Below the pieces are notes generated by a model. That model made no database searches. It was not told the origin of the DNA and saw only the letters and a list, made by a program, of their open reading frames with translations. A DNA stretch of 64,000 nucleotides, taken from Pseudoalteromonas sp. N1230-9 (GTDB lineage: Bacteria > Pseudomonadota > Gammaproteobacteria > Enterobacterales > Alteromonadaceae). Made by a program: the position numbers and the translations under genes. The stretch is from positions 2,792,001-2,856,000 of the forward strand of contig NZ_CP090419.1 of the NCBI RefSeq assembly GCF_032716425.1. Reading direction: 5' to 3'. Below, piece after piece: positions 998 through 64,000 of this stretch (position 1 is its first letter; every line of letters starts with the position of its first letter).

Positions 998-2533
998 TTA
1001 ATCAGCTTGAGGACGCATGTGTGGGAATAGGATCACGTCTTTAATTGTTGGTGAGTCAGTAAATAACATCACTAGACGATCGATACCAATGCCCTCACCC
1101 GCTGTTGGCGGTAAGCCGTACTCTAACGCACGAATGTAATCTTCGTCGTAGTGCATTGCTTCATCATCACCGGCGTCTTTCTCTTCAACTTGACGCGAGA
1201 AACGCTCAGCTTGGTCTTGTGCATCGTTAAGCTCAGAGAAACCATTGGCTAATTCACGGCCGCCAACGAAGAATTCGAAACGGTCAGTTACAAATGGGTT
1301 TTCATCGTTACGACGTGCAAGTGGTGACACTTCCCACGGGTAAGCTGTGATGAAAGTTGGTTGAATTAACTTGTGCTCAGCTGTCTCTTCGAAAATTTCA
1401 CATAAGAACTTACCTGGGCCCCATACGCAGTTTTCTGGCACTTTAACGTGTACTTGCTTCGCGTACGCTTTAAGTTCTTCAAAATGGTTTTCAGGGTCAT
1501 TAAATACAGCCGCATCAAAGTCGGGATTGTACTTAAGAATAGCTTCGCTCATTGTTAGGCGTGCAAAAGGCTTCCCAAAATCATACTCTACTGAGTCTAC
1601 CACTTCACCGTTTTCATCTTTCGTTGTGTTTACAACAATAGGTGAGCCAAGTACGTCTGTCGCAACAGTGCGTAGCATGTCTTCTGTGATGTTCATCAGA
1701 TCAATGTAATCAGCGTATGCTTGGTAGAATTCGATCATTGTGAATTCTGGGTTATGACGCGTTGATAAACCTTCGTTACGGAAGTTACGGTTAATTTCGA
1801 ATACACGTTCAAAGCCACCCACAACTAAACGTTTTAAGTAAAGCTCTGGTGCAATACGTAAGTACATGTCGATATCAAGTGCATTGTGATGTGTTACGAA
1901 TGGACGTGCAGACGCACCACCTGGGATCACTTGTAGCATCGGTGTTTCAACTTCCATGAAGTCACGCTCAGCTAAGAAACGACGGATACCTTCAACAACT
2001 TTTGAGCGAATACGGAATGTTTCACGCGTCGCATCGTTAGTGATTAAGTCAACATAACGTTGACGGTATTTAGTTTCTTGGTCAGATAAACCATGGAATT
2101 TCTCTGGTAATGGACGTAATGACTTAGTAAGTAACTCGTACTCTGTCATTTCTACGTATAGATCGCCTTTACCTGACTTATTAAGTGCGCCTTTAACACC
2201 GATGATGTCACCGATATCAAGTTGACCGTATTTTGCTTTTAACTCTTTTTGTACGTCTTTTGACGCGTACGCTTGAATTTGACCTTTCATGTCTTGTAAC
2301 GCAAGGAAAGGACCACGTTTCGCAAGAATACGACCCGCTACTGATACAACGTGCTGCTCAGCAACTAATTCTTCTTTCGATTTATCACCAAACTCAGCTT
2401 GCAAATCAGCCGTGTAATGTTCACGACGGAATTGGTTTGGATGACCGTTGGCTGGGCAATTTTCGCGGATTGCGTCTAATTTGCCACGACGCTCAGCGAT
2501 TAACTTATTTTCGTCTTGGATTTGATCAGTCAT
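998..2533 (-). CDS. lysS: Lysyl-tRNA synthetase, class II
   Basis: LysRS charges tRNA-Lys with lysine in the cytoplasm. The 511-residue length is normal. An N-terminal OB-fold anticodon-binding domain (about residues 60-150, including the GRILAKRGP stretch) precedes a class II catalytic core. Motif 2 is visible as [15 protein letters not shown] and motif 3 as GIGIDRLVM near the C-terminus. The gene lies 26 bases downstream of prfB, the same pair and order as prfB-lysS in E. coli, so the two are probably cotranscribed. A clear terminator follows. Confidence 0.97.
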
Positions 2534-2559
2534 TTTTTAGCTCTTTTTTAGCTTGGTGG

Positions 2560-3658
2560 TTATAGGCCAGATTTAAGGCTGGCTTCAATAAATTTATCTA
2601 AGTCGCCGTCAAGAACCGCTTGAGTATTACGATTTTCAACGCCTGTACGTAAGTCTTTAATGCGCGAGTCATCAAGCACGTATGAACGAATTTGACTACC
2701 CCAGCCAATGTCTGACTTTGCATCTTCTTGGCTTTGTTTCTCTGCATTTTGCTTTTGTAGCTCAAGTTCAAACAATTTCGCTTTTAGCTGTTTCATTGCT
2801 TGGTCTTTATTCTTGTGCTGTGAACGCTCATTTTGGCACTGAACAACCGTATTGGTTGGCACGTGAGTAATACGCACCGCAGATTCAGTGGTATTTACGT
2901 GCTGACCACCGGCACCAGATGCACGATAAACGTCAATACGTAGGTCAGCCGGATTAATATCAATTTCGATATTATCGTCGATTTCTGGGTAAACGAATGC
3001 CGATGCAAACGAGGTATGACGACGACCACTTGAGTCGAACGGGCTCTTACGCACTAAACGGTGAACACCTGTTTCTGTACGTAACCAACCGTATGCATAT
3101 TCGCCAACGAAGCGCACTGTTGCGCCCTTGATACCAGCCACATCACCATCAGTTGCTTCAACAAGTTCAACTTTAAAGCCTTTTGCCTCACCCCAACGTA
3201 AATACATACGCAGTAACATGTTACACCAGTCTTGTGCTTCAGTACCGCCTGAGCCTGATTGTAAATCAAGGTAAGCATCGTTTTGATCTTGCTCGCCAGA
3301 GAACATACGACGAAACTCAAGCTTTTCAAGTTGTGCATTTAAATCTTCAAGTTCAGCTTCAGCTTCTTGGAAAGTTTCTTCGTCTTCAGCTTCCACTGCA
3401 AGTTCAACTAAACCTTCAACATCGTCTGTGCCCGTAACGAGATTATCAATGGTCTCAACGATAGCTTCTAGTGATGACTTCTCACGGCCTAACGCTTGCG
3501 CACGCTCTGGCTCATTCCATACTGCTGAATCTTCAAGTTCTGCGTTAACTTCTTCTAACCGCTCTTTCTTAAGAGGGTAGTCAAAGGTACCCCCGAAGCA
3601 GTTCAGTACGTTCGCGAATTTCCTTGATTTGGTTAATCACAGGATTCACTTCAAACAT
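2560..3658 (-). CDS. prfB: Peptide chain release factor 2, with programmed +1 frameshift
   Basis: RF2 recognises UAA and UGA stop codons. The gene is in two frames. A 25-codon leader starts at the ATG at 3658 ([13 protein letters not shown]...LRGYL) and meets an in-frame TGA at 3583-3581. Skipping one base continues into a 340-codon frame ending at 2560, so the full protein is 365 residues, the same as E. coli RF2. The GGQ loop is visible as SGAGGQHVN. Reading only the long frame gives a false 278-residue start. The gap to recJ holds a terminator, so prfB-lysS probably has its own promoter. This is conserved autoregulation and not a broken gene. Confidence 0.97.
3580..3595 (-). promoter_or_regulatory. 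prfB +1 frameshift site
   Basis: The minus-strand codons read CGG GGG TAC CTT TGA C. This is the conserved RF2 slippery site: a Shine-Dalgarno-like GGGGG stretch just upstream, the CTT slip codon, the TGA stop, and a C after TGA that makes it a weak stop. Low RF2 would favour the shift to GAC. Confidence 0.95.
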
Positions 3659-3733
3659 GTACATTACTCCAAAATGGCTGATTTACCGCGCACAGCTTAC
3701 GACAATAATTACGGTAAATTATCTACAAATATT

Positions 3734-3770
3734 AAAAACGCCCGATTTTAACAAAAAACCGAGCGTTTTA
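3734..3770 (-). terminator. Probable terminator between recJ and prfB
   Basis: On the minus strand AACGCTCGG pairs with TCGGGCGTT (with G-U wobbles), and the inner UUUU/AAAA bases can extend the stem. A TTTTT run follows. It sits 32 bases past the recJ stop codon and upstream of prfB. Confidence 0.7.
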
Positions 3771-3801
3771 TTAGCCTTTTATGCCGATAAAGACGATATT
3801 T

Positions 3802-5523
3802 TTATGTCACTTTTTGTAGCTCTCGAATAATCAGTTGTAACGAAAATTTGCCACGGAATTCATTTATATCGAGCTGATAAGCAGCTTTGACGTATCTCAC
3901 TTCAGTGTCTGGCCATGCTCGTACGTCAACACCAAATGCAATACCGTCAACTAAGCGCCCTGATTGATGCTTTAAAACCAGTTTTAAGTGCTTTTCACCG
4001 ACAATACGCTGCTGTATTACTTCGAAAACATGTTCAAACACAGGTTCTGGAAATTGCTGCCCCCAAGGTCCTGCATTTTTTAGCTGATTGGCGAACTCCA
4101 TCGAAAAGCAGTCATTGGGCAGTTCACCGTCGGTTAGCAAAATGCTTTGTTTATGCTCATCAGTCAGTGTGTCTGTCACCATTTGCTCAAACACGGTTTT
4201 AAATTCAGTAAAACACTGCTCATTGATACTCAGTCCGGCCGCCATAGCATGACCACCAAATTTACTTATCAAATGCGGATAGAGTGTATTTACTCGCTCT
4301 AATAAGTCACGCATATGCAGCCCTTCAATAGAGCGGCAAGAGCCTTTTATTTCGCCGTTATCGCCAGCGGCAAAAATAACCGTAGGACGGTGATACTTCT
4401 CTTTTAAGCGCCCAGCCAATATGCCTATCACACCTTGGTGCCAATCGGCTTGGTATAAACAAATGGCATCAGGTACTGACTCAGTTTTAAATGCTAAACG
4501 GTCAAGCACAGCTTGTGCCTCCGTTTGCATGCCTTGCTCTATTTCACGGCGCTCATGATTGAGGCTGTCGAGCTCACCAGCAATTCGGCGTGCTTGGTTT
4601 ATATCATTAGATAACAAGCAGGCTATACCTAAACTCATATCATCTAAACGCCCTGCTGCATTTAAACGTGGCGCCAATGAAAAGCCAAAGTCGCTGGCAC
4701 TTAAACGGGCTGCATTGCGATTTGCCACTTCGATAAGGGCACTAATACCAGGTCGTGTTTTACCACTACGAATACGTGCTAAACCTTGATGCACTAAGGT
4801 GCGGTTATTGGCATCAAGCGCAACTACATCAGCTACAGTGCCAAGAGCAACAATATCAAGTAATTCGGCCAAATTAGGCATTGGATTATGCTGAAAATAC
4901 CCTTGTTCACGTAAATGGCTGCGCAGTGCAATTAATAAATAGAACGCCACGCCAACCCCAGCAATGGATTTTGATGGGAAAGAGCAGTCATGGCGATTAG
5001 GGTTCACTATCGCATCGGCATTTGGTAATGCCTCACCTTGCAAGTGATGATCAGTGACCAGCACTTTAATACCTGCTTGCTTTACAATCGCAATGCCATC
5101 AATACAGGAGATACCATTATCGACGGTAATCACCAGCTCAGGCTGCATTGTCACGATTTGCTCAGCAAGTGCAGGGCTCAAACCATAACCAAGGCTAAAC
5201 CTGTCCGGCACTAAATAGTCAAGGTTCTGTAAACCAAACATAGCCAAACCTTGCATCAAGGTTGCGGTGCTCGTTGCACCGTCGGCATCAAAGTCACCCA
5301 CTATTAGCACACGGCTTTGTGATGCCAGCGCGTCTTGTAATAACAACACAGCTTTGTCTATGTCTTTAAACAGCTTAAAGTCATGTAATGTTGCTGCACT
5401 ATTATCTAATTCTTTGGCATCTTGAACCTGACGAGAGGCATAAATTTGCTTGATAACAGGATGTAAGTGATGTGGAAGATATGAGTCATCAACACGAGGG
5501 CGAACTTGGATTATTTTTTCCAT
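3802..5523 (-). CDS. recJ: Single-stranded-DNA-specific exonuclease RecJ
   Basis: RecJ is a 5'-3' single-strand DNA exonuclease of recombination and mismatch repair. The 573-residue length fits (E. coli 577). DHH-family metal motifs are visible: DFDADGATS near residue 78, VTVDNGIS, and VTDHH. The DHHA1 region carries the FGGHAMAAG motif near residue 405. It lies in the xerD-dsbC-recJ-prfB-lysS order also found in E. coli. The start is the ATG giving MEKIIQVRPR. Confidence 0.96.
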   Translation of the reverse strand: MEKIIQVRPRVDDSYLPHHLHPVIKQIYASRQVQDAKELDNSAATLHDFKLFKDIDKAVLLLQDALASQSRVLIVGDFDADGATSTATLMQGLAMFGLQNLDYLVPDRFSLGYGLSPALAEQIVTMQPELVITVDNGISCIDGIAIVKQAGIKVLVTDHHLQGEALPNADAIVNPNRHDCSFPSKSIAGVGVAFYLLIALRSHLREQGYFQHNPMPNLAELLDIVALGTVADVVALDANNRTLVHQGLARIRSGKTRPGISALIEVANRNAARLSASDFGFSLAPRLNAAGRLDDMSLGIACLLSNDINQARRIAGELDSLNHERREIEQGMQTEAQAVLDRLAFKTESVPDAICLYQADWHQGVIGILAGRLKEKYHRPTVIFAAGDNGEIKGSCRSIEGLHMRDLLERVNTLYPHLISKFGGHAMAAGLSINEQCFTEFKTVFEQMVTDTLTDEHKQSILLTDGELPNDCFSMEFANQLKNAGPWGQQFPEPVFEHVFEVIQQRIVGEKHLKLVLKHQSGRLVDGIAFGVDVRAWPDTEVRYVKAAYQLDINEFRGKFSLQLIIRELQKVT

Positions 5524-52727: not shown

Positions 52728-53675
52728 ATGCCAGCCAGTATATGCTTAATTATCGCGACCTTTTTATGGGGTAGCTCTTACATTGCGTTAAAGCACGCAA
52801 TCAATATTTACGACCCTGTGTTAGTGATTTTTTTAAGAATGCTAACCACATTACTGATTTGCTTATGTTTATGGCGATATGTGATCCGCTTTGAGTTTAA
52901 ACAAGGTGACTGGAAGTATTTAATTGGGATGTCACTGGCTGAGCCTTGCTTTTATTATTTATTTGAGGGGCATGCCCTAGAGTACACGTCAGCATCGCAA
53001 GCTGGGGTTATTGTCTCTTGTTTACCAATTATCGTTGCTATTTTGGCGTTCTTAATATTAAAAGAGTACATCAGTAAAGCCATTGTCGTTGGTTTTACCT
53101 TATGTATTGGTGGCAGTATTTTATTAACGCTATTATCACCAAGCACTGAGCAAGCCCCTAACCCTTTGCTTGGTAACTTTTTAGAATTGATGGCGATGGT
53201 GTGCGCGGCATTTTATACCGTGAGTGTAAAACACTTAGTCGCTCGTTACTCGCCGCTTACCTTAATTGCAATTCAAGGGTTTAGTGGTAGTTTGTTCTTT
53301 GCGCCTTTTTTATTTTTCATCGAACTACCGAGCGAAAATCAGCACGATTTAAGTGCCCTAATGAGCATTTTATATTTAGGCTCATGTGTCACGTTAGGTG
53401 GCTATGGCATGTACAATTACGCCATCAGTAAAGTGTCGGTGTTAACCGCTGCCGCCTACTCTAATCTTATTCCAATTTTTGCGTTAATTTTGTCAGCCAT
53501 TCTACTAGGCGAGGTGCTGACTGTTTGGCAATGGGTGAGTATTGCAGTGGTATTTGCAGGTGTTATTGTTAGCCAACGTCATCAAGAGCTCAAAGTTGAA
53601 GTAGACGACGATAATTTATCAGCCGATACCAATAGCCTAAACTCAGTGCCTGACGCTAACGAGTCAAAAGGGTAA
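52728..53675 (+). CDS. EamA/DMT-family transporter
   Basis: This is a 315-residue inner-membrane protein with ten predicted membrane segments in two repeats. The first EamA motif is ATFLWGSSYIALKHAI and the second repeat starts near NFLELMAMVCAAFYT. It is likely a metabolite or drug exporter of the drug/metabolite superfamily; the substrate is unknown. The hydrophilic C-terminal tail (about 290-315, VDDDNLSADTNSLN) is encoded in the 94 bases that overlap the convergent sortase gene. Confidence 0.88.
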   Translation: MPASICLIIATFLWGSSYIALKHAINIYDPVLVIFLRMLTTLLICLCLWRYVIRFEFKQGDWKYLIGMSLAEPCFYYLFEGHALEYTSASQAGVIVSCLPIIVAILAFLILKEYISKAIVVGFTLCIGGSILLTLLSPSTEQAPNPLLGNFLELMAMVCAAFYTVSVKHLVARYSPLTLIAIQGFSGSLFFAPFLFFIELPSENQHDLSALMSILYLGSCVTLGGYGMYNYAISKVSVLTAAAYSNLIPIFALILSAILLGEVLTVWQWVSIAVVFAGVIVSQRHQELKVEVDDDNLSADTNSLNSVPDANESKG

Positions 53676-54169
53676 CAGGTTAATAAATAAAGGCCTGATT
53701 GCGCTAAAAAGCCCTGTTCGCTTTGATGAATAACATCAATGCTGCGAACTTGATAGTGTTCAATCTGGCCATTTTGCAACTGCATAGAGAATTGCTCACC
53801 TACTGCGACATGTTTTAAAAATGCAAAGTGGGTGTCGTTATGGCCCGCAATCAACACCCCTTTTGTACTGCCAAGCTCTCCACTTGGTAAAAAGTGCCCG
53901 GGGGCAAACGCAAGGTTTCGCCCCGATGCACCAGCAAGTACTGTTAACTCTTGCTGCTGGCTTGGCCAATTTATGTGTGCGGTGACATAACCATCGGCGT
54001 AAAACCATGGCCTCACTTGCTCATTAGGACTTTGCAAAGCTTGCTGCCAAGCTGACTCAATTAGCGCCTGTGCCAGCCAAGCTTTCGCCTGCATATAGCC
54101 ACCATTAACAAACAATGCGATGCCAAGTAAGGCGCTGCAAACTGGCAGCGCTTTTTTTAGCGTCGCCAT
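53582..54169 (-). CDS. Class GN sortase (marine proteobacterial sortase)
   Basis: This sortase transpeptidase is predicted to cut its substrate at an LPxTG-like motif in the inner membrane. It has an N-terminal membrane anchor (VCSALLGIALFVNGG) and the catalytic residues His in AGHNDTHF, Cys in LLTCYPF and Arg in GTEFRLLV. I use the ATG giving MATLKKALP (195 residues); in-frame ATGs 2 and 4 codons earlier overlap the substrate gene further. It follows the substrate gene with an overlap. Its last 94 bases overlap the convergent transporter gene. Confidence 0.92.
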   Translation of the reverse strand: MATLKKALPVCSALLGIALFVNGGYMQAKAWLAQALIESAWQQALQSPNEQVRPWFYADGYVTAHINWPSQQQELTVLAGASGRNLAFAPGHFLPSGELGSTKGVLIAGHNDTHFAFLKHVAVGEQFSMQLQNGQIEHYQVRSIDVIHQSEQGFLAQSGLYLLTCYPFDSLASGTEFRLLVSADKLSSSTSTLSS

Positions 54170-56157
54170 TGCCATAACCATGAGAATGTAAGCAGCAACA
54201 ACCCAAGTAGCATAAACACTCGGCTTTGTCCGTCGGTTTGCGGTAGCGCCATGCCGTTAGGGAGTTTGTTTCGTACTTGCATTGAACGCTCTGCAATCTC
54301 ATTACCCGCGTAGTTATCAACTGCAATAAAGGCTGTAAATGGGCTAAGTAAATTGTGCTGAAGTGCCAATGCTTCGACTTCTGCTCGTACCGTTTGTTTT
54401 TCGTTATAAAGCAACAGCGATTTAATTTTTTGTCTTGCCCAGAGCCTAGCGATACCTTCGCCGTTTGCGGCATTGGCCGTTGCTAAGTTAATGGTCATGG
54501 GTCCTGAGTTTGTTTGCCCTTTTAACGTTAAGTGCTGACTGCCATCAAGCTTTATGGCAACCAAAACCGGCTCTGAAAAATACAAGTCAGGTAATGGCGA
54601 TGGCCAGTATTCAAGTGCTGCTTTATCGCCTTCAAGAGCAAGCTCTGTAACAGCAGGATGTGCCAGCTTATCAAAAAGCAGCTGCATTTTTGGCTGTACT
54701 TGGCTGGTGCTACTAATAAAAGTGAAAGTACCACGGCCAATATCAGCCGCTCTTGTCATAAAAAAGCTATTAGGCGCACTGCCAATACCCACAGTAAAAA
54801 GCCTGCTGTCACCTAAGTCAGATTGAATTTGCTTAAATAACTGCGTTTCGTTACCCACACTGCCATCGGTTAAAAATACCACTTGGCGTACAAAGCCATC
54901 ATGCTGTTTACCATCAAGTACCTGCGTCAGTGCTTTTGCGATTTCGGTGCCACCATCGGCTTGTAAACCATAAATAAAGCGCTCAGCGCGGCGAATATTA
55001 AAATCATTAGCAATCATCGGCGTGTCACTTAATAGCGAGACTTCGTTATCAAAACCTATGATATTAAAGCTGTCGTTTTCATCCAGTAACGATAAGGCAT
55101 AAAACAAGGCCTGCCTTGCCTGCTCCATAGATTGACCATGCATTGAACCTGAAGTATCAACAACAAACACCATTTCGCGAGGCAGCCGTGCTTGCGAGGT
55201 AAAGTGATCGCTTGGCGGCACTAGCATTAATAAGCCATACTTTTGCCCTGCGACTGTTTCGGTAAAAAATGCAGCCTGTGAGTGAGCTTTATCATGGGGC
55301 TTAAATGTTAGCTCAAAGTCTCTATCCATCGGAATGTCACGATTAAGCGATAATTGATAACGGCCAAAACTTGGGTTATCGACTTGCATACCATCTAAGT
55401 TGGCGTTGATGTAACTAAGCTCTAGGCCAATATCCATCGAAATAGCAAGGTTTAGGCTCGCATCAGACTCTTGGCTTTTAGCATGGTGAAAAACAGGTTT
55501 TAGCCACGCTGATGCCACTTGCGCTTTATTAGCCGCTGGTTCACTCTGTTGTTCTGTGTCTTTTTTTTCTAGATACGTTTTTTGCTGTAATTCTGCCGTT
55601 AAAGGTTCGTAGCGCGGCGTAATAGTGGTCGGAAAACGCAACGAAAACACACCATCACGAAAGCCGATGATCTCTTGGTATTGCAAAGTAATTTCAATTT
55701 CTTCACCAGCTCCAAGATTTGCCACATCAGTAGAGAAAATATTAGCACGTTGCTGACGCACTAAAGCGGCGCGTTTACCCTGCTTTTGAGCTTGCTCAAA
55801 TTGCTGTTCAGCCTGCTGCTTAAGGGCAATATTGCCTGTGATAATGCGCTCACCTATTTGCATTTGCATGGCATGCACAGCACTTTCATCAGGTAACGGA
55901 AACACATAGCGAGCATTGACCGCAAATGGATGCGGGTTTTGATAACGCTGTTTAACAACAACATGATTAATCAGCCCCGTGAGTGTCATAGTGACATCGT
56001 TTTTCATTAGTAACCCCGACGACACTTGGCTATTTGAGTCATCATAAAAACGCAGTTCGGCACTGGCATTAGCAGCGAACACAGGGTTAACAGCATAACC
56101 TAACAGCAGGATAAAAAGGCTCATATACATGAGCCTTTTGGTGCGTTTACTCAACAT
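54157..56157 (-). CDS. Marine proteobacterial sortase target protein (VIT-vWA)
   Basis: This 666-residue exported protein is the predicted single substrate of the adjacent sortase. After a signal peptide (ending VFAANA near residue 30) comes a VIT domain (about 35-165, VVKQRYQNPHPFAVNARYVFPLPD). A von Willebrand A domain follows at about 325-500, with an intact metal site (VDTSGSMHGQS, GGTEIAKAL, LTDGSVGNE). The C-terminus has the sorting signal LPQTDG, a membrane segment (MLLGLLLLTFSWLW) and basic QWRR. SD GGAG precedes the start. An odd terminator-like hairpin lies within codons 7-15. Such proteins may act in adhesion or as envelope scaffolds. Confidence 0.93.
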   Translation of the reverse strand: MLSKRTKRLMYMSLFILLLGYAVNPVFAANASAELRFYDDSNSQVSSGLLMKNDVTMTLTGLINHVVVKQRYQNPHPFAVNARYVFPLPDESAVHAMQMQIGERIITGNIALKQQAEQQFEQAQKQGKRAALVRQQRANIFSTDVANLGAGEEIEITLQYQEIIGFRDGVFSLRFPTTITPRYEPLTAELQQKTYLEKKDTEQQSEPAANKAQVASAWLKPVFHHAKSQESDASLNLAISMDIGLELSYINANLDGMQVDNPSFGRYQLSLNRDIPMDRDFELTFKPHDKAHSQAAFFTETVAGQKYGLLMLVPPSDHFTSQARLPREMVFVVDTSGSMHGQSMEQARQALFYALSLLDENDSFNIIGFDNEVSLLSDTPMIANDFNIRRAERFIYGLQADGGTEIAKALTQVLDGKQHDGFVRQVVFLTDGSVGNETQLFKQIQSDLGDSRLFTVGIGSAPNSFFMTRAADIGRGTFTFISSTSQVQPKMQLLFDKLAHPAVTELALEGDKAALEYWPSPLPDLYFSEPVLVAIKLDGSQHLTLKGQTNSGPMTINLATANAANGEGIARLWARQKIKSLLLYNEKQTVRAEVEALALQHNLLSPFTAFIAVDNYAGNEIAERSMQVRNKLPNGMALPQTDGQSRVFMLLGLLLLTFSWLWQWRR
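56114..56139 (-). promoter_or_regulatory. Terminator-like hairpin inside the sortase-target gene
   Basis: In the minus-strand transcript AAAAGGCTCAT pairs perfectly with ATGAGCCTTTT (11 bp) around a 4-base loop, followed by a TTTTT run. It covers about codons 7-15 of the target gene, just after its start. The shape is that of an intrinsic terminator, so attenuation linked to translation is possible. Confidence 0.6.
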
Positions 56158-56183
56158 AATTAGTCACTCCATCGACCGATGAA

Positions 56184-56921
56184 TTAGTGGTTACTTTGCG
56201 CTGTACGCAAACTACTTTGTGTCACAGGGCGCGTCGTCAATGTTACGCGGCGGTCAAAGATGTTGTCTTCGTAGTTATTTGAATCAGCAACACTTTGCTG
56301 CTCACCAAAGGCGGTTGCGGTTAAGCGGGTATGCGGCACGCCTTGTTTAATTAAGTAGCTTTGCACGGCATTTACACGCTGCTTTGAAAGCATTAAATTA
56401 GCCAACTCATCACCGCGCTGATCTGCAAAGCCATTTAAGTCGATAGCCAGATTTGGCTGGGCAATCAGTAACTGAGCTACTTTGTCGAGTTGATTAGCAA
56501 AGTGCGGGGCAATTTCACTAGAGCCAGTTTTAAACTGCACCGTCATGGCTAGTAAAGTATTAAGCTGGGCTTGCAATAACTGCTCTTTTTCATCCGCTAA
56601 TAATTCAAGCTGCTCACTTAGGGCGGCGTTATCAGCAATCACTTGTTGGTAATCAGCGGTTTGCTCTTTCATTACGACTAATGCGTGAGCTTGTTCATCA
56701 ATGGTGTTTTCTGCCGCTTCTTTTTCACCAATTAAGCCGCCTGCAAATGCCCCCACAAACGCGCCAATTGGACCACCTACTAAGCCGCCAACAACGGCAC
56801 CAGCACTAAGGCCTATCGCTGTTTCTTTTGGTGTATCTTGCTTTGTTTGATTTGCAGCAACCGCATACTGTGTTGTTGATAAAGCAGTGGTAATGACAGC
56901 GGCAATAATTAATTTTTTCAT
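56184..56921 (-). CDS. pdsO: Sortase-system OmpA-family protein PdsO
   Basis: This 245-residue exported protein has a signal peptide ending near YAVAAN. A glycine-zipper segment (about 37-66, AGAVVGGLVGGPIGAFVGAF) could insert in a membrane. A short coiled coil follows (QTADYQQVIADNAAL, LEQL), then a C-terminal OmpA-like domain (about 130-230) with FKTGSSEIAPHF and LNGFADQRGDELAN, expected to bind peptidoglycan. It lies 26 bases upstream of the target gene on the same strand. The name PdsO is used for OmpA proteins of dedicated sortase systems. Confidence 0.9.
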   Translation of the reverse strand: MKKLIIAAVITTALSTTQYAVAANQTKQDTPKETAIGLSAGAVVGGLVGGPIGAFVGAFAGGLIGEKEAAENTIDEQAHALVVMKEQTADYQQVIADNAALSEQLELLADEKEQLLQAQLNTLLAMTVQFKTGSSEIAPHFANQLDKVAQLLIAQPNLAIDLNGFADQRGDELANLMLSKQRVNAVQSYLIKQGVPHTRLTATAFGEQQSVADSNNYEDNIFDRRVTLTTRPVTQSSLRTAQSNH

Positions 56922-56951
56922 GGTTTAATCCTTTTTGTACTTAATTGCTTG

Positions 56952-56971
56952 GCAACATTGGTTGGTGTTGC
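56952..56971. other. Dyad in the pdsO/pdsR divergent promoter region
   Basis: GCAACA and TGTTGC are inverse complements with an 8-base spacer. The dyad lies 31 bases upstream of the pdsO start and about 170 bases upstream of pdsR. It is a candidate binding site for PdsR or another regulator; no function is shown. Confidence 0.3.
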
Positions 56972-57140
56972 GAACTTGGTATGGAGCTATTAAAACAAAT
57001 CGAAATGGCAATAAAGGGGATCAAAAAAGGCAAACTGCTGAGCAATTGTGGCAGAAAAATGGCAATCGCATTTTTGCCAGTACGCAAGGCAAAAAATTAG
57101 GTATAGTTCGCTGTAGAAAGAATTTAAGTAAGTATTAACA

Positions 57141-57830
57141 ATGAAGAAAATAGCAATCGTTGAAGATGAAACAGCAATCCGCGAAAACTACACAGAAATG
57201 CTCAGCACTCAGGGCTATCAGGTTGTAGGCTTTGCTGACAGAGCCAGTGCTGAACTGGCATTTAATCAATCTTTACCAGATTTAGCCATTGTTGATATTG
57301 GCCTTGGCCATGAAGTAGATGGTGGTTTTTTACTTTGCCAAACTCTACGCAGCCTTTCTAAAACCTTACCGATTATATTTTTAACCGCCCGCGATAGCGA
57401 AATTGATACCGTGTGTGGCCTGCGCATGGGAGCAGACGACTACTTAACCAAAGACATCAGTATGGCGCATCTTGCTGCTCGCATTGGCGCATTGTTTAGA
57501 CGCCTTGATGCCTTCGATCAACCCGCCGATCAAACCGCTCTTTTACATCGCGGCCCGTTAAAGTTAGATACCCAGCGCATGCAGGTTTTTTGGCAAGAGC
57601 AACTGGTTGATTTAACTGTGACAGAATTTTGGATGGTGCATTCACTTGCGCAGCGTCCAGGCCATGTAAAAAGCCGCAACGAATTAATGAGTGATGCAAA
57701 AATTTATGTTGATGACAGCACCATTACTTCGCACGTAAAACGCATTCGTAAAAAGTTTATTGCTTTAGATGATGCATTTGATTGCATTGATACCGTTTAC
57801 GGTATGGGTTATCGCTGGGAGCAAGCTTAA
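57141..57830 (+). CDS. pdsR: Sortase-system response regulator PdsR
   Basis: This is a 229-residue OmpR-type regulator. The receiver (1-120) has EDE near the start, the acceptor Asp in AIVDIGLGHEVDGG, the Thr in FLTAR and the Lys in LTKDI. The winged helix covers about 135-229 (TVTEFWMVHSLAQRPG, TITSHVKRIRKKF, YGMGYRW). Its TAA stop overlaps the ATG of pdsS by one base. It is divergent from pdsO and the sortase-target genes, which are its likely targets. It matches the regulator type found with proteobacterial dedicated sortase systems. Confidence 0.93.
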   Translation: MKKIAIVEDETAIRENYTEMLSTQGYQVVGFADRASAELAFNQSLPDLAIVDIGLGHEVDGGFLLCQTLRSLSKTLPIIFLTARDSEIDTVCGLRMGADDYLTKDISMAHLAARIGALFRRLDAFDQPADQTALLHRGPLKLDTQRMQVFWQEQLVDLTVTEFWMVHSLAQRPGHVKSRNELMSDAKIYVDDSTITSHVKRIRKKFIALDDAFDCIDTVYGMGYRWEQA

Positions 57831-59956
57831 TGCTGCGTTTGGGGCTTAGAACAAAGTTTATTTTCTTATCCTGCTTTTTATTTTTATTGCCTTGGCTTGG
57901 CTATGAGTATGTATGGGAAATGGAAAAGTTCTTAAGACAAGGGCAAGAAAAAACCTTAGTGGGCACAACCCGCGCACTCGCTACCGCATTACATGAGCGC
58001 CCCGCTTTGTTTGACTCACAAACCAACTTTTTAGATCAAGTGGTAAAAGGCCGAGATTTATATGCTTACAACCTAAATAATCCGATTCAACTTGATGGCA
58101 AACTGTCGGAGTGGCAGCCTTATCAAAGCTTATTTTGGCATTACGACAAGCGCTACTTACAGGGGTTAAATAATGATCATCAAGATAGTGATCTAAGTTT
58201 TGATCACATGGTAGGCAAATACGAAAACTACCTTTATGCGGCATTTAAAGTCACTGACAGCTCACTGGTGTATCGCGCTAAAAATGTGCTCAGCTTTACC
58301 CGTAATGATCACTTACAGATCATGTTAAAAACACCCGAAGGTGAATTTAAACGTTATGTGGTGGCTGCCCGCCAAGATGGTTGGGTTAATGCCTTTGATG
58401 CTTCGACACAAGAGCCGGTCACTAAAATTCAAGGCTATTTTAAAAGCACCAACGCGGGTTACAACATAGAGCTGCGTTTTCCGCTTTCGATGTTAGGTAA
58501 TAAGCTCGGTTTTGCGATTGAAGATTGGGATGAAGGCAAAGCTGAGCCTCAGCTTATGTCGACCTCAAACCTACAAAACCCCAATGATATCGGCTCAGTT
58601 TTAGTGCCGTCACCAGAAATTAACCGTATTTTGAAAGGCATGGGTCACAGTGGTAGTCGAATATGGGTCGTAGATAACCATCATCGTGTACTTGCGCAAT
58701 CAGGCTCAATTCATCATGCTGATGGCGTTTGGGCAGATGGCCTTAAAGATGCGCCTGCAACAACGTGGTGGCAACGCTTTGAGCAAGATTATTTGCATCC
58801 TCTTTACTATAAAATATTAACTCGCCCAGAAAATGAATTTATTGATACCTTACATGATGTCGCCGCGATGCAAGGCACTCACATAGCCAGTGCTTTAAAT
58901 GGTAAACCCGCATCATCATGGCGTTTAACCCCAGATAACAAAGCCGTTATTTTATCTGCCGCCTACCCTATTTGGATCCAAGATAAAGTGATTGGTGCAG
59001 TAATCGCAGAAGAAACCACCAATGGCGTGCGCACTCTGCGTAATAAGTCACTAGAGAAGCTATTTAATGTCATTTTAGCGGTAATGCTTGTTGGCACCGT
59101 GACACTGTTCTTTTTTGCGTCACGAATTTCCAGCCGTATTCGCCGCCTGCGTGATAATGCCGAACAAGCCATTGATGCCCAAGGGCGGATCACCGGCAAA
59201 ATAACCTATGCCGATTCGAATGATGAAATTGGTGACCTTTCTCGTAGCTTTGCCAACATTGTTAGTCGTTTAAGTGGTTATACTGATTACTTAGAAAATA
59301 TGTCATCACGACTTTCCCATGAACTACGCACGCCTGTGGCTGTTGTTCGCTCATCACTTGAAAACTTACAAATGCAGCCACAATCTGAACTAAGTCAAAA
59401 ATATCTCGACCGTGCCAGTGAAGGGGTTGAGCGGTTGGGTAAAATTATTACCACCATGAGCGAAGCAACGCGTCTTGAACAAAGTATTCAAAGCGCCGAA
59501 GCTGAAGAATTTGATCTGACCAAGGTGATCACCGGCTGCATGCAAGGCTATCAAATAACCTACGGTGAAAGTCTATTTACCTTGTCGCTTTGTAAAGAGC
59601 CGTTAAATGTCAGTGGCGCACCAGAGTTTATTGCCCAATTGCTTGATAAGCTCATCAACAATGCACTTGAGTTTAAAACTCCACAAAGCACAATTTCCGT
59701 TAGCTTAATCAAGCAAGAGCAACATGCATTATTAAAAATTAGCAACCAAGGACCTCTGCTACCTGACGGTTTAGTTGAACACATTTTCGACTCAATGGTC
59801 TCGGTGAGAAGTCAGCAACATCAACAGCAGCCTCACTTAGGCTTAGGTCTTTATATTGTAAGGCTTATTTGCGATTACCATCATGGTAAAGTAGCCGCTG
59901 AAAATTTAGATGATGGTACGGGTGTTGTGTTTACTGTGGAGCTGCCTATTAAATAA
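57830..59956 (+). CDS. pdsS: Sortase-system sensor histidine kinase PdsS with CBM9-like domain
   Basis: This 708-residue inner-membrane kinase has a first membrane segment at about 10-25. Its periplasmic part of roughly 385 residues includes a CBM9/DOMON-like domain (about 78-235: LDGKLSEWQ, NDHLQIMLKTP, YNIELRFPLSML), a fold known from carbohydrate binding. A second domain follows before the membrane segment at about 407-427. HAMP comes next, then HisKA with LSHELRTPVAVV (His near 497) and an ATPase with LINNALEFK and LGLGLYIVRLI. The ATPase G1 region is short (KISNQGPLLP). The sensor may detect a glycan or the sortase substrate state; this is inference. Confidence 0.92.
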   Translation: MLRLGLRTKFIFLSCFLFLLPWLGYEYVWEMEKFLRQGQEKTLVGTTRALATALHERPALFDSQTNFLDQVVKGRDLYAYNLNNPIQLDGKLSEWQPYQSLFWHYDKRYLQGLNNDHQDSDLSFDHMVGKYENYLYAAFKVTDSSLVYRAKNVLSFTRNDHLQIMLKTPEGEFKRYVVAARQDGWVNAFDASTQEPVTKIQGYFKSTNAGYNIELRFPLSMLGNKLGFAIEDWDEGKAEPQLMSTSNLQNPNDIGSVLVPSPEINRILKGMGHSGSRIWVVDNHHRVLAQSGSIHHADGVWADGLKDAPATTWWQRFEQDYLHPLYYKILTRPENEFIDTLHDVAAMQGTHIASALNGKPASSWRLTPDNKAVILSAAYPIWIQDKVIGAVIAEETTNGVRTLRNKSLEKLFNVILAVMLVGTVTLFFFASRISSRIRRLRDNAEQAIDAQGRITGKITYADSNDEIGDLSRSFANIVSRLSGYTDYLENMSSRLSHELRTPVAVVRSSLENLQMQPQSELSQKYLDRASEGVERLGKIITTMSEATRLEQSIQSAEAEEFDLTKVITGCMQGYQITYGESLFTLSLCKEPLNVSGAPEFIAQLLDKLINNALEFKTPQSTISVSLIKQEQHALLKISNQGPLLPDGLVEHIFDSMVSVRSQQHQQQPHLGLGLYIVRLICDYHHGKVAAENLDDGTGVVFTVELPIK

Positions 59957-61015: not shown

Positions 61016-62359
61016 CTACATTAAGTTTTCGACATTAATGTTGTGTTTTTTTATTAACTTATAAAAATCTGAACGGTTCCGTTTTGCAAGCTTAGCGGCC
61101 TCTGCGACATTGCCGGCTGCCATCTTTAAGGTATTGATTAGATAATCTCGTTCAAACTCTTTTTTCGCATCATTCAGCGAAAGTGGTTCCGCAATACTTA
61201 CATTACTATTGAGTGCAGACTCCACCAGTTGAGCAGAAATAACTCCGCCTGGTGTCAAGGCAACAACTTGTTCAATCACGTTTTGTAGTTGGCGAATATT
61301 ACCTGGCCAATCATACCTCACTAGCGCATGCATCGCATCGCTTGCAAAGCGTTTTTCGTCTTGATTCATGCGCTTTGCTATCTGCCCTGCAAAATGCTGT
61401 GCCAACAAACTTATATCTTCACGGCGTTCACAAAGAGGTGGTAGCTTTAAATTAACAACGTTCAATCGATAATAAAGATCTTCCCTAAATTGTTGGTTAT
61501 TTATCGCTTCGGGAAGGTTTTTATGGGTGGCAGATACAACTCTGACATCAATTGGAATTTCTTCTTGGAAGCCAACAGGGCGAATCGTTTTCTCTTGTAA
61601 TACGCGTAATAACTTCACTTGTAAGTTCAGTGGCATATCACCAATTTCATCTAAAAACAGTGTGCCGCCTTGTGCTTGCTGAAATAAACCTTGATGATCT
61701 TTCACAGCCCCTGTAAACGCGCCTTTTTTATGCCCGAATAATTCCGACTCTAGTAGCTCACCGGGTACTGCACCGCAGTTAATCGCCACGAATGGACCGT
61801 CACTAACGTGACTATGCTGATGGATTGCTTGCGCAAGTAGTTCTTTACCTGTGCCACTGGCACCAGATATGAGTACGTTAACCTGTGTCGGCCCCAGTAG
61901 CTTAACCTGTTCAAGTAAATGCAGCATCGCCCCGCTTCGCGTCACGATATTGGTTTGAGTTGGCGCTTCCTCCCCATGCACTCCATGGATCTCTATTGCT
62001 TTTGCTAAGCTGTCAAATAACTCATCTTTATCAACAGGCTTTGTGATAAATGCAAAAATTCCCTGCTTTGTCGCCTCGACTGCATCTGGAATCGAACCAT
62101 GCGCTGTCATCATGATGACAGGCATAGATGGGTAGCGGCTTTGCAACTGACGATGCAGCGCCATTCCGTCCATTTCGTCCATTCTTAAATCGGTAATTAC
62201 CGCGTCGTAGGTTTTATTTTTAAGTTCTTGAAGAGCCACAATGCCACTTTCAGCAGTACTCACTTGATAGCCTTTAGACTCGATTCTTATTGCTAACAGC
62301 TTTAATAAACTCGCGTCATCATCCACTAGTAACACGCGAGGTTTACTTACTTCATTCAT
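61016..62359 (-). CDS. glrR: Sigma-54-dependent response regulator GlrR (QseF)
   Basis: This 447-residue NtrC-type regulator has a receiver (1-120) with the Asp in AVITDLRMDEMDG. The AAA+ domain (about 135-370) shows Walker A GASGTGKELL, the sigma-54 contact loop GAFTGA and Walker B FLDEIGD. A C-terminal Fis-type helix-turn-helix follows (NVAEAAKLAKRNRSDFYKL). It activates sigma-54 promoters such as glmY in E. coli. It starts 2 bases after the qseG-like stop, matching the glrK-qseG-glrR order of E. coli. Confidence 0.94.
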   Translation of the reverse strand: MNEVSKPRVLLVDDDASLLKLLAIRIESKGYQVSTAESGIVALQELKNKTYDAVITDLRMDEMDGMALHRQLQSRYPSMPVIMMTAHGSIPDAVEATKQGIFAFITKPVDKDELFDSLAKAIEIHGVHGEEAPTQTNIVTRSGAMLHLLEQVKLLGPTQVNVLISGASGTGKELLAQAIHQHSHVSDGPFVAINCGAVPGELLESELFGHKKGAFTGAVKDHQGLFQQAQGGTLFLDEIGDMPLNLQVKLLRVLQEKTIRPVGFQEEIPIDVRVVSATHKNLPEAINNQQFREDLYYRLNVVNLKLPPLCERREDISLLAQHFAGQIAKRMNQDEKRFASDAMHALVRYDWPGNIRQLQNVIEQVVALTPGGVISAQLVESALNSNVSIAEPLSLNDAKKEFERDYLINTLKMAAGNVAEAAKLAKRNRSDFYKLIKKHNINVENLM

Positions 62360-62361
62360 AC

Positions 62362-62898
62362 TTACTGCTCCTTAGTCTCTTCGCGAAGAAGAAGTTGCTG
62401 CTCAATCGTAGCCAGTGACGACAATGTTTTTTCCATTTTTTCGGTTAATGCTTGCTTTGCTTGTTTCGCTTTTAAATGCTGCTTAACACTTTGCTTTTGA
62501 AGCCAAAGGTACTGCTTTATATCATCTGGCCAATAGTAAGCTTGATCTGTTTTGTCTAGTAAAGCCAACGTTTTTTCTGGACTTGCTTCGCTCTCTAGAC
62601 ACAGTGATTTAAACAACGCTTTGATTTCTTTTTCACCTACATAACTTACTTTTTTATGTGTGCTCTTATAGCCTCCACATTGCTGGGCATGCCAAGCAAT
62701 AACAATATTTGCAGGTGGATACATCGGCTCACTTTTCGGACGCGGCTTGGGATTAGGCTCTCCCTCTTCGGGTGTTACATGTTTTTTATTAACTACTTGC
62801 TGCGCTTGTTCTGTTACGGGCTTAGTTTCTAGCAACGAACAGCCCGAGAGCATTAGTGCAGCAATCATCATAAAACTGGCTTTATTAGCTAAGCCCAT
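62362..62898 (-). CDS. qseG: QseG-like lipoprotein
   Basis: This 178-residue lipoprotein has a lipobox LSGC (Cys near residue 20) and a mature domain that is Lys/Glu-rich and probably helical, with a long coiled-coil end (KAKQAKQALTEKMEKTLSSL). Two further cysteines lie in HAQQCGG and KSLCLES. It sits between glrK and glrR, the position of E. coli qseG (yfhG), whose lipoprotein product interacts with the kinase. The sequence itself is too diverged for me to confirm by motif. Confidence 0.75.
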   Translation of the reverse strand: MGLANKASFMMIAALMLSGCSLLETKPVTEQAQQVVNKKHVTPEEGEPNPKPRPKSEPMYPPANIVIAWHAQQCGGYKSTHKKVSYVGEKEIKALFKSLCLESEASPEKTLALLDKTDQAYYWPDDIKQYLWLQKQSVKQHLKAKQAKQALTEKMEKTLSSLATIEQQLLLREETKEQ

Positions 62899-62899
62899 A

Positions 62900-64000
62900 T
62901 CAGTTAACTCCCTGGGTTAATTGAATTGGTAATATTACGGTAAAACAGCAGCCATGGGGGTCATTGTCTTCGAGCTTTAGCTCACCGTTTAGTTGTTCAA
63001 CTGTTTCTTTCACAATAGTAAGTCCTAAGCCACTGCCCATCTCAGCTTGGCTTTTGGCATTTTTACCTTGATAAAATGCACCAAAAATAGACATTTTTTC
63101 GGATTCATCAACACCAATGCCAAGATCGCTCACCGACACCATAAGCTTACTGTGTTTAAATGTCACCTTAATGGTAACTGCTTCTTTTTCTGGTGAAAAT
63201 TTTAATGCGTTGGAAATAAGCTGCACTAAAATCATTTCTAATAATTCCGTTGAAATATAAAGAGAGCGGCTAGGTAATTCATTTAACCAAAGCAACGATT
63301 GATCTCGCGCTATTAGGCGATGTTCAAAATGTCGCTCTATTTTGCCCATCATCACCGAAAAGTCTAATTCGGTGATGCTCTCCTTACTGGTGCGAATTGC
63401 ATTATAATTTAAAAGGCTTTCAATCATAATGCGTAACCGCGCCATACTTTGTGTAATAAGCTCTAATACAGCTTGCTGCTCTGCATTGATAGGCCCCACA
63501 ATTTCATCAGCGAGGAGATCTGTTCCTTCAACCATAGAAGCCAATGGGGTTTTTAATTCATGTGTAACATGGCGTAAGAATGTATCTTTTTGCTGCTCAA
63601 GCATATGAAGTTGTGCTTGTACCCATTGTAACTTATTGCCTAACTCAATAAGCTCAGAAGAACCTTTAACAGAAATATTTTGTTGCCAATGACCTTGTCC
63701 CAGTTTATCGATAACAGATGTCAATTCGCGTAAACGCCCACTGATCCGCCATAAAAACCCGCCACTCACCAGCAAAGTAATAGGGATCAATGCCAATAGC
63801 CAATTTATAAATGACGCTTGTAAGGTTTTTAAGTGTTGTTGGTTTTTCGTGATGCGTAATTCATTCTGATCACGTAGCCACACTGTTTGCTCTGCAATCA
63901 GTTTACTGGCTGGTGCAAACAGCTCACCATCTTGTTTTTGTTCATGTACCAAGTGTTGCTGAGCAAAGCTCAACACATCGGCTAGCTGCTGCCATTGGTT
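62900..64000 (-). CDS. glrK: Sensor histidine kinase GlrK (QseE), partial
   Basis: The frame is open through the window end, so the N-terminus is missing; the visible GTG at 63976 is not the true start. Visible parts are the end of the periplasmic domain, a membrane segment (WLLALIPITLLVSGGFLW), HAMP (RELTSVIDKLGQGHW), HisKA with VTHELKTPLASM, and the ATPase boxes LISNALKFS, SDLGIGV and GSGLGLTIVKE. It is upstream of qseG-glrR in the E. coli order. It should phosphorylate GlrR in response to envelope signals. Confidence 0.92.
   Translation of the reverse strand, partial: NQWQQLADVLSFAQQHLVHEQKQDGELFAPASKLIAEQTVWLRDQNELRITKNQQHLKTLQASFINWLLALIPITLLVSGGFLWRISGRLRELTSVIDKLGQGHWQQNISVKGSSELIELGNKLQWVQAQLHMLEQQKDTFLRHVTHELKTPLASMVEGTDLLADEIVGPINAEQQAVLELITQSMARLRIMIESLLNYNAIRTSKESITELDFSVMMGKIERHFEHRLIARDQSLLWLNELPSRSLYISTELLEMILVQLISNALKFSPEKEAVTIKVTFKHSKLMVSVSDLGIGVDESEKMSIFGAFYQGKNAKSQAEMGSGLGLTIVKETVEQLNGELKLEDNDPHGCCFTVILPIQLTQGVN

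Follow-up and report, generated by a model that had tools for sequence, protein, structure and literature searches.

A five-gene dedicated sortase system in Pseudoalteromonas sp. N1230-9: a possible peptidoglycan acceptor and a candidate PdsR operator

Sortases are usually regarded as anchoring enzymes of Gram-positive bacteria, and a sortase gene in a Gram-negative genome raises the question of what the enzyme joins its substrate to. Such a gene is present in Pseudoalteromonas sp. N1230-9 (assembly GCF_032716425.1; two contigs, 4.63 Mb), in a stretch of 64,000 nucleotides (contig NZ_CP090419.1, positions 2,792,001 to 2,856,000; hereafter the window). A class GN sortase is encoded there together with a VIT/vWA protein, the OmpA-like protein PdsO and the two-component pair PdsR/PdsS. 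An original prediction, made from the DNA alone, had described these genes as a dedicated sortase system recognised by bioinformatics but of unsettled function. The latter point agrees with a paper of 2023, in which the role of sortases in Gram-negatives 'remains unknown' (PMC10581121).

Comparison with NCBIfam models placed each of the five predicted proteins above the cut-off of its own family (Table 1). By family membership the locus is shown to be a proteobacterial dedicated sortase (PDS) system, with all five genes present and intact as predicted; this kind of system was described and named in 2011 (Haft 2011, PMC3237569). Its identity was thus already known, and what is new here is a narrowed mechanism and a candidate operator. 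The five genes do lie together, but the claim that they form one unit had to be revised, as they are arranged in two divergent units, pdsO-target-sortase and pdsR-pdsS, 219 bp apart. Within the former, the target gene overlaps at its 3' end with the first 25 bp of the sortase gene.

Table 1. Features of the PDS locus, in window positions (model scores in bits, NCBIfam cut-off in brackets)
Feature	Position	Strand	Length	Matches	Parts
Sortase (class GN)	53582-54181	-	199 aa	TIGR03784 212.4 (158.25)	N-terminal membrane helix extending unbroken to about residue 50, sortase domain
VIT/vWA sortase target	54157-56157	-	666 aa	TIGR03788 737.7 (551.65); PF08487, PF13768	Signal peptide, VIT domain, vWA domain, tail of LPQTDG, hydrophobic segment and basic end (C-terminus LPQTDG...TFSWLWQWRR)
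PdsO	56184-56921	-	245 aa	TIGR03789 254.8 (152.2); PF00691	Signal peptide, glycine zipper, OmpA C-terminal domain
Candidate PdsR operator	57006-57065	+			Four TGGCAA-like half-sites in the pdsO-pdsR gap
PdsR	57141-57830	+	229 aa	TIGR03787 413.0 (335.7); PF00072, PF00486	
PdsS	57830-59956	+	708 aa	TIGR03785 1056.5 (612.2)	

In 80 named loci, which are the best 80 of 574 confirmed relatives and are biased to close relatives, the sortase adjoined the target 79 times, and the eightieth locus begins at a contig end. Where each flank was 6 kb or longer (56 loci), PdsR and PdsS each lay beside the pair in 45. A further universal neighbour was not found in the top 30 ORF clusters examined, the largest of which covers 22 of the 80 loci. 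The core of the system is the sortase with its adjacent target. A search of 60 related genomes, the own genome included, gave a sortase in 28 and a full-length target (E<1e-100) in the same 28. In a sample of the class, 56 of 369 genomes carried a sortase, each as a single match (48 above cut-off). The phylum sample (completeness at least 90%) gave 42 sortase-bearing genomes out of 397, 37 of them above cut-off and 41 with a single match, while G571 had a second, weak one. Because 22 of these 42 genomes lie outside the class, and because two loci from metagenome-assembled genomes (MAGs) of Myxococcota are among the 80 named loci, the PDS sortase is not confined to marine gammaproteobacteria. 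In locus L199 (genome G410) the class GN-like sortase is incomplete and scores weakly (77.6 bits), and no adjacent target was detected.

The catalytic residues His114, Cys169 and Arg182, predicted to be intact, were invariant in a 91-member alignment (A2), so that the Cys and His are conserved in relatives as well. The closest named sortase among the matches listed, which may omit the own genome, was that of Pseudoalteromonas shioyasakiensis (97% identity). The best solved relative by sequence was 2ln7, titled LPXTG-site transpeptidase in its file, which we take to be SrtC, the class D sortase of Bacillus anthracis. Judged in this way, the sortases of solved structure that come closest seem to be class D-like; 2ln7 was absent among the best 50 structural matches, which does not exclude it as a structural relative.

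The tail of the target scored above the LPXTG anchor model TIGR01167 (20.5 versus 15.9 bits), and TIGR03501 (GlyGly-CTERM) gave no match at E<=10 on this tail (LPQTDGQSR). The prediction of one dedicated substrate gained support from a tail profile (A6), which matched the target in the host genome at E 6.1e-15, with the next match at E 0.19; the match to the target arises by construction, its tail being one of the 20 rows, and sensitivity is limited, as a genuine tail from genome G406 scored just E 0.10. The sorting motifs of 129 targets were surveyed with a regular expression that preset Pro or Ala at position 2 and Thr or Gly at position 4, and that made at least one likely wrong pick (PAGTDT in L217, beside its MPQTGL). 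In the 127 readable tails (L178 and L197 gave none), the commonest motif was [LFYM]-P-[QARK]-T-A-T, with Pro replaced by Ala in 16 and Thr by Gly in 14. LPQTDG was found in Pseudoalteromonas loci and is a local variant of this TA-type family motif. The replacement of Thr by Gly pairs with Gly at sortase residue 112, two positions before the catalytic His114 (10 of 13 versus 4 of 77). By parsimony, Gly at residue 112 changed eight times and the motif residue six times, and three rows with Gly in the motif carry Ala or Ser. The covariation is suggestive only; it is consistent with coevolution of the sortase and its adjacent target.

Residues D334, S336, S338, T404 and D431, presumably the metal site (MIDAS) of the vWA domain, were invariant in 60 target sequences. 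The target profile matched residues 613-1185 of vault PARP4 at E 1.5e-70, and also ITIH4 and ITIH1; by these matches, the target is homologous to vault PARP4 and the ITIH heavy chains over most of its length. An Ensifer homologue annotated as marine proteobacterial sortase target protein (SMc01580 in Sinorhizobium meliloti) appears as differentially expressed in a published table (PMC6637203), which may offer a way into the system in a laboratory strain.

As to the acceptor, the original prediction left it open because a Gram-negative cell has no thick wall to attach to. This lack is no obstacle, as meso-diaminopimelate (m-DAP) of peptidoglycan is present in the Gram-negative periplasm. The same residue (m-Dpm) is the acceptor to which Bacillus anthracis SrtC, encoded in the operon basI-srtC-sctR-sctS, joins BasI after cutting LPNTA between Thr and Ala (PMC3297441). 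Since gene logic, motif type and sequence nearness all agree with this cassette, and since its acceptor is at hand, we give an even chance to the reading that cleavage of the VIT/vWA protein follows the Thr of LPQT, which is then joined to peptidoglycan m-DAP in the periplasm. PdsS would then sense an envelope signal, and PdsR, acting at a single phased TGGCAA operator, would switch the divergent pdsO-target-sortase unit. The VIT/vWA protein would leave the cytoplasm through Sec and stay anchored in the inner membrane by its C-terminal segment, after which the sortase would cleave between LPQT and DG via a thioacyl intermediate on Cys169 and pass the protein to the free amine of m-DAP in lipid II or nascent peptidoglycan. 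The product would be a metal-binding VIT/vWA module held covalently on the thin sacculus, like Braun's lipoprotein but made by a sortase, and PdsO, where present, may be a non-covalent peptidoglycan-binding helper and not the acceptor.

Several points weigh against this reading. The acceptor is taken over from a Gram-positive relative, and among the papers listed in a literature search that covered few subscription journals, none reports experiments on a class GN sortase. The residue after the Thr is Asp here, compared with Ala in class D motifs. The class D models scored below their cut-offs (NF033746, 50.8 of 165 bits; NF058671, 56.8 of 140 bits), and class C structures stood only about one Z unit lower in structural comparison. 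The operator array described below was not found, at up to 5 mismatches, in 28 of 64 pdsO-pdsR gaps. Finally, rhombosortase also sorts members of the VIT/vWA family, and its one studied product favours a lipid amine: VesB processed by rhombosortase carries glycerophosphoethanolamine and, once secreted by the type II route, is seen on the cell surface (PMC6219818), and LPXTG, GlyGly-CTERM and PEP-CTERM tails are swapped across the family (Haft 2011, PMC3237569).

On the strength of these last findings, the sortase could join its target to a lipid amine, e.g. phosphatidylethanolamine, giving a lipid-anchored and perhaps surface-exposed protein as proposed for rhombosortase products, which we consider unlikely. 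Paralogues of the target were collected as 19 regions with a second VIT/vWA match of at least about 110 bits, weaker and mostly vWA-only matches being left out. By eye, 15 of them (L181-L191, L193-L195 and L198), all in genomes with a class GN sortase match, have GlyGly-CTERM-like tails, of which five were above the cut-off of TIGR03501, six below it and four absent from the matches listed. The tail of L192 was unreadable, and no known tail type is present in L180, L196 or L197. The sortase-target pair has a mirror image in six genomes, where a rhombosortase above cut-off directly adjoins the paralogue. However, 13 genomes (by eye; five with TIGR03501 above cut-off) hold both a sortase-type target and a GlyGly-like paralogue, and both tail types within one genome suggest two destinations. 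To our knowledge, no sortase uses the amine of a lipid headgroup.

The export route argues in the same direction. Among 65 genomes searched, the own one included, rhombosortase was above cut-off in 38 and GspD in 56; GspD was the sole marker of type II secretion, and diverged secretins may escape it. For the nine genomes without GspD, it looks split over two contigs in G303, G270 is 86% complete, and G152, G114 and G348 are 90-93% complete, but G161, G199, G278 and G422 are 98-99% complete (G161 and G278 belong to the same genus). Because the sortase persists in such near-complete genomes, it seems that it can serve a cell without type II secretion and that this route is not required. As a separate observation, L197 (genome G226, 2480-4774) encodes a second PDS-like VIT/vWA protein (TIGR03788, 507 bits), apparently without a sorting tail.

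It is rather improbable, in our estimate, that the sortase mainly hydrolyses, so that the target would be let go from the inner membrane to the periplasm, a regulated release and not an attachment. Water can resolve sortase thioacyl intermediates, and no universal acceptor gene emerged from the clustered neighbours, of which the largest cluster covers 22 of the 80 loci. On the other hand, the sortases of known function are, as far as we know, transpeptidases, and conservation next to the membrane segment (in alignment A2, K33 and A34 are invariant and A37 and L40 reach at least 90%) suggests fixed positioning near the membrane, which is no proof of transfer.

PdsO had been proposed as a candidate partner of the sortase. 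If it were the acceptor, the target would be bound to peptidoglycan via the OmpA domain of PdsO, in which Asp167 and Arg182, invariant in 40 aligned sequences (A4), stand 15 residues apart, the same spacing as in OmpA domains that bind m-DAP. PdsO adjoins the pair in 39 of the 80 named loci, and 26 of the 28 relatives with a sortase have it above cut-off (not G041 and G054; G047 has PdsO without a sortase). A PdsO-like gene also adjoins the pair in eight of 49 further class-sample loci having sortase and target, some with short flanks. However, of the 56 named loci whose flanks each reach 6 kb or more, PdsO adjoins the pair in just 35 and not in 21, the pair stands without it in Bowmanella, Kangiella and other loci, and of the 56 sortase-bearing class genomes four have PdsO above cut-off (14 at E<=1e-25). 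Because of this uneven co-occurrence, PdsO is an accessory of some lineages, optional to the core, and therefore a poor acceptor candidate. Outside the signal peptide, moreover, no lysine is common to more than 18 of 31 PdsO rows. The proposed partnership thus found little favour: PdsO is unlikely as a general acceptor, and transfer to it in this system appears very improbable. Nine loci from MAGs, of Woeseiaceae and others, have a supposed PdsO some kb downstream of the sortase gene; these were rejected, as they have lipobox-like signals and look YiaD-like. Polymerisation of the target, or its crosslinking to itself, in the manner of class C pilus sortases is hardly credible given one target per cassette in the loci examined and the low score of the class C model (26.5 of 160 bits).

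The regulation of the system seems to point back to its own locus. PdsR is a response regulator with a Trans_reg_C (OmpR/PhoB-type) domain, and PdsS is a histidine kinase whose sensor region is large and periplasmic; their next best equivalogs are CreB and CreC, respectively, and CreB binds direct repeats of 11 bp pitch. The pdsO-pdsR gap contains a block conserved between this locus and 10 close loci, and TGGCAA-like half-sites stand there at 0, 22, 43 and 54 bp (spacings 22, 21 and 11), about 135 bp before the pdsR start. With up to 5 mismatches in 24, this array was found in 36 of 64 gaps (the own locus and 63 of the 80 named loci, the others having no divergent pdsR or a gap outside 30-700 bp), compared with 0.0 expected from shuffles that preserved base content only. 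Fifteen of the 36 are from Pseudoalteromonas, own locus included, 15 from Shewanella and six from other lineages; because the motif was derived from the own locus, only the 21 regions of other genera are independent support. At genome scale and with up to 2 mismatches, the pattern occurred once each in 26 of the 28 relatives with a sortase, in every case no more than about 200 bp from the pdsO match, and once in one of the 32 relatives without sortase (G045:C33:213192-213251, 2 mismatches). A reversed-pattern control gave zero matches in these genomes. The phased TGGCAA array is a candidate PdsR operator. Its last two half-sites resemble the -24/-12 promoter consensus, but given the 22/21/11 phasing and the PdsR domain we take it as more probably a response-regulator array; promoter and terminator scans gave no excess over shuffles. 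As to the signal, 39 aligned PdsS sequences (E<=0.01) matched HisKA and HATPase_c in all 39, Cache_WalK in 16, dCache_1 in eight and CBM9_1 in four, weak indications of Cache and CBM9 in the sensor region, and the best 60 PDB matches cover only the HAMP and kinase part.

Around the locus, a convergent EamA-type transporter gene (52728-53675, plus strand) overlaps the 3' end of the sortase gene with its own 3' end by 94 bp (53582-53675), and a neighbour related to this transporter is present in 15 of the 80 loci. At 61016-63976, close to the PDS genes, a small lipoprotein-like gene separates two open reading frames that read as a sigma-54-activator-like response regulator and a histidine kinase.

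The comparison narrows the question raised by the locus: PdsO is unlikely as a general acceptor, the motif is of the TA type in most members, type II secretion is apparently dispensable, and m-DAP is indicated. If linkage to m-DAP is true, the Gram-negative envelope would contain a covalent protein-peptidoglycan link made by a sortase. The wider picture, held tentatively and at somewhat less than an even chance, is of a Gram-negative counterpart of the Bacillus SrtC cassette, in which an ITIH-like VIT/vWA protein may be tied to m-DAP, the only strong genomic operator of the two-component system would be its own, and a paralogue would be sorted elsewhere by rhombosortase in some relatives.

Among known systems, the ITIH heavy chains and vault PARP4 match the target profile in sequence. 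ITIH heavy chains are covalently attached by their C-terminal residue to glycosaminoglycan; they and PARP4 are eukaryotic, however, with an ester bond and no sortase, so that this is an analogy at most. The rhombosortase/GlyGly-CTERM system shares the VIT/vWA family and a C-terminal signal in three parts, and six genomes show the layout of enzyme beside target as well, but its enzyme is an unrelated rhomboid serine protease, its motif is Gly-rich and VesB reaches the cell surface via type II secretion (PMC6219818). With the PDS system as such, all five families agree and nothing excludes membership; a single target in a cassette with its own sortase matches the text of Haft (PMC3237569), although the motif here is the Pseudoalteromonas-locus variant LPQTDG and the commonest in the family is xPxTAT. 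The Bacillus SrtC/BasI cassette differs by the Gram-negative host, the VIT/vWA substrate, the class D scores below cut-off, the presence of PdsO and the Asp after Thr, but in gene layout it likewise has a target, a sortase and a two-component pair encoded together, its motif is of the TA type found in most of the GN family, and it presumably includes the best solved relative by sequence, 2ln7.

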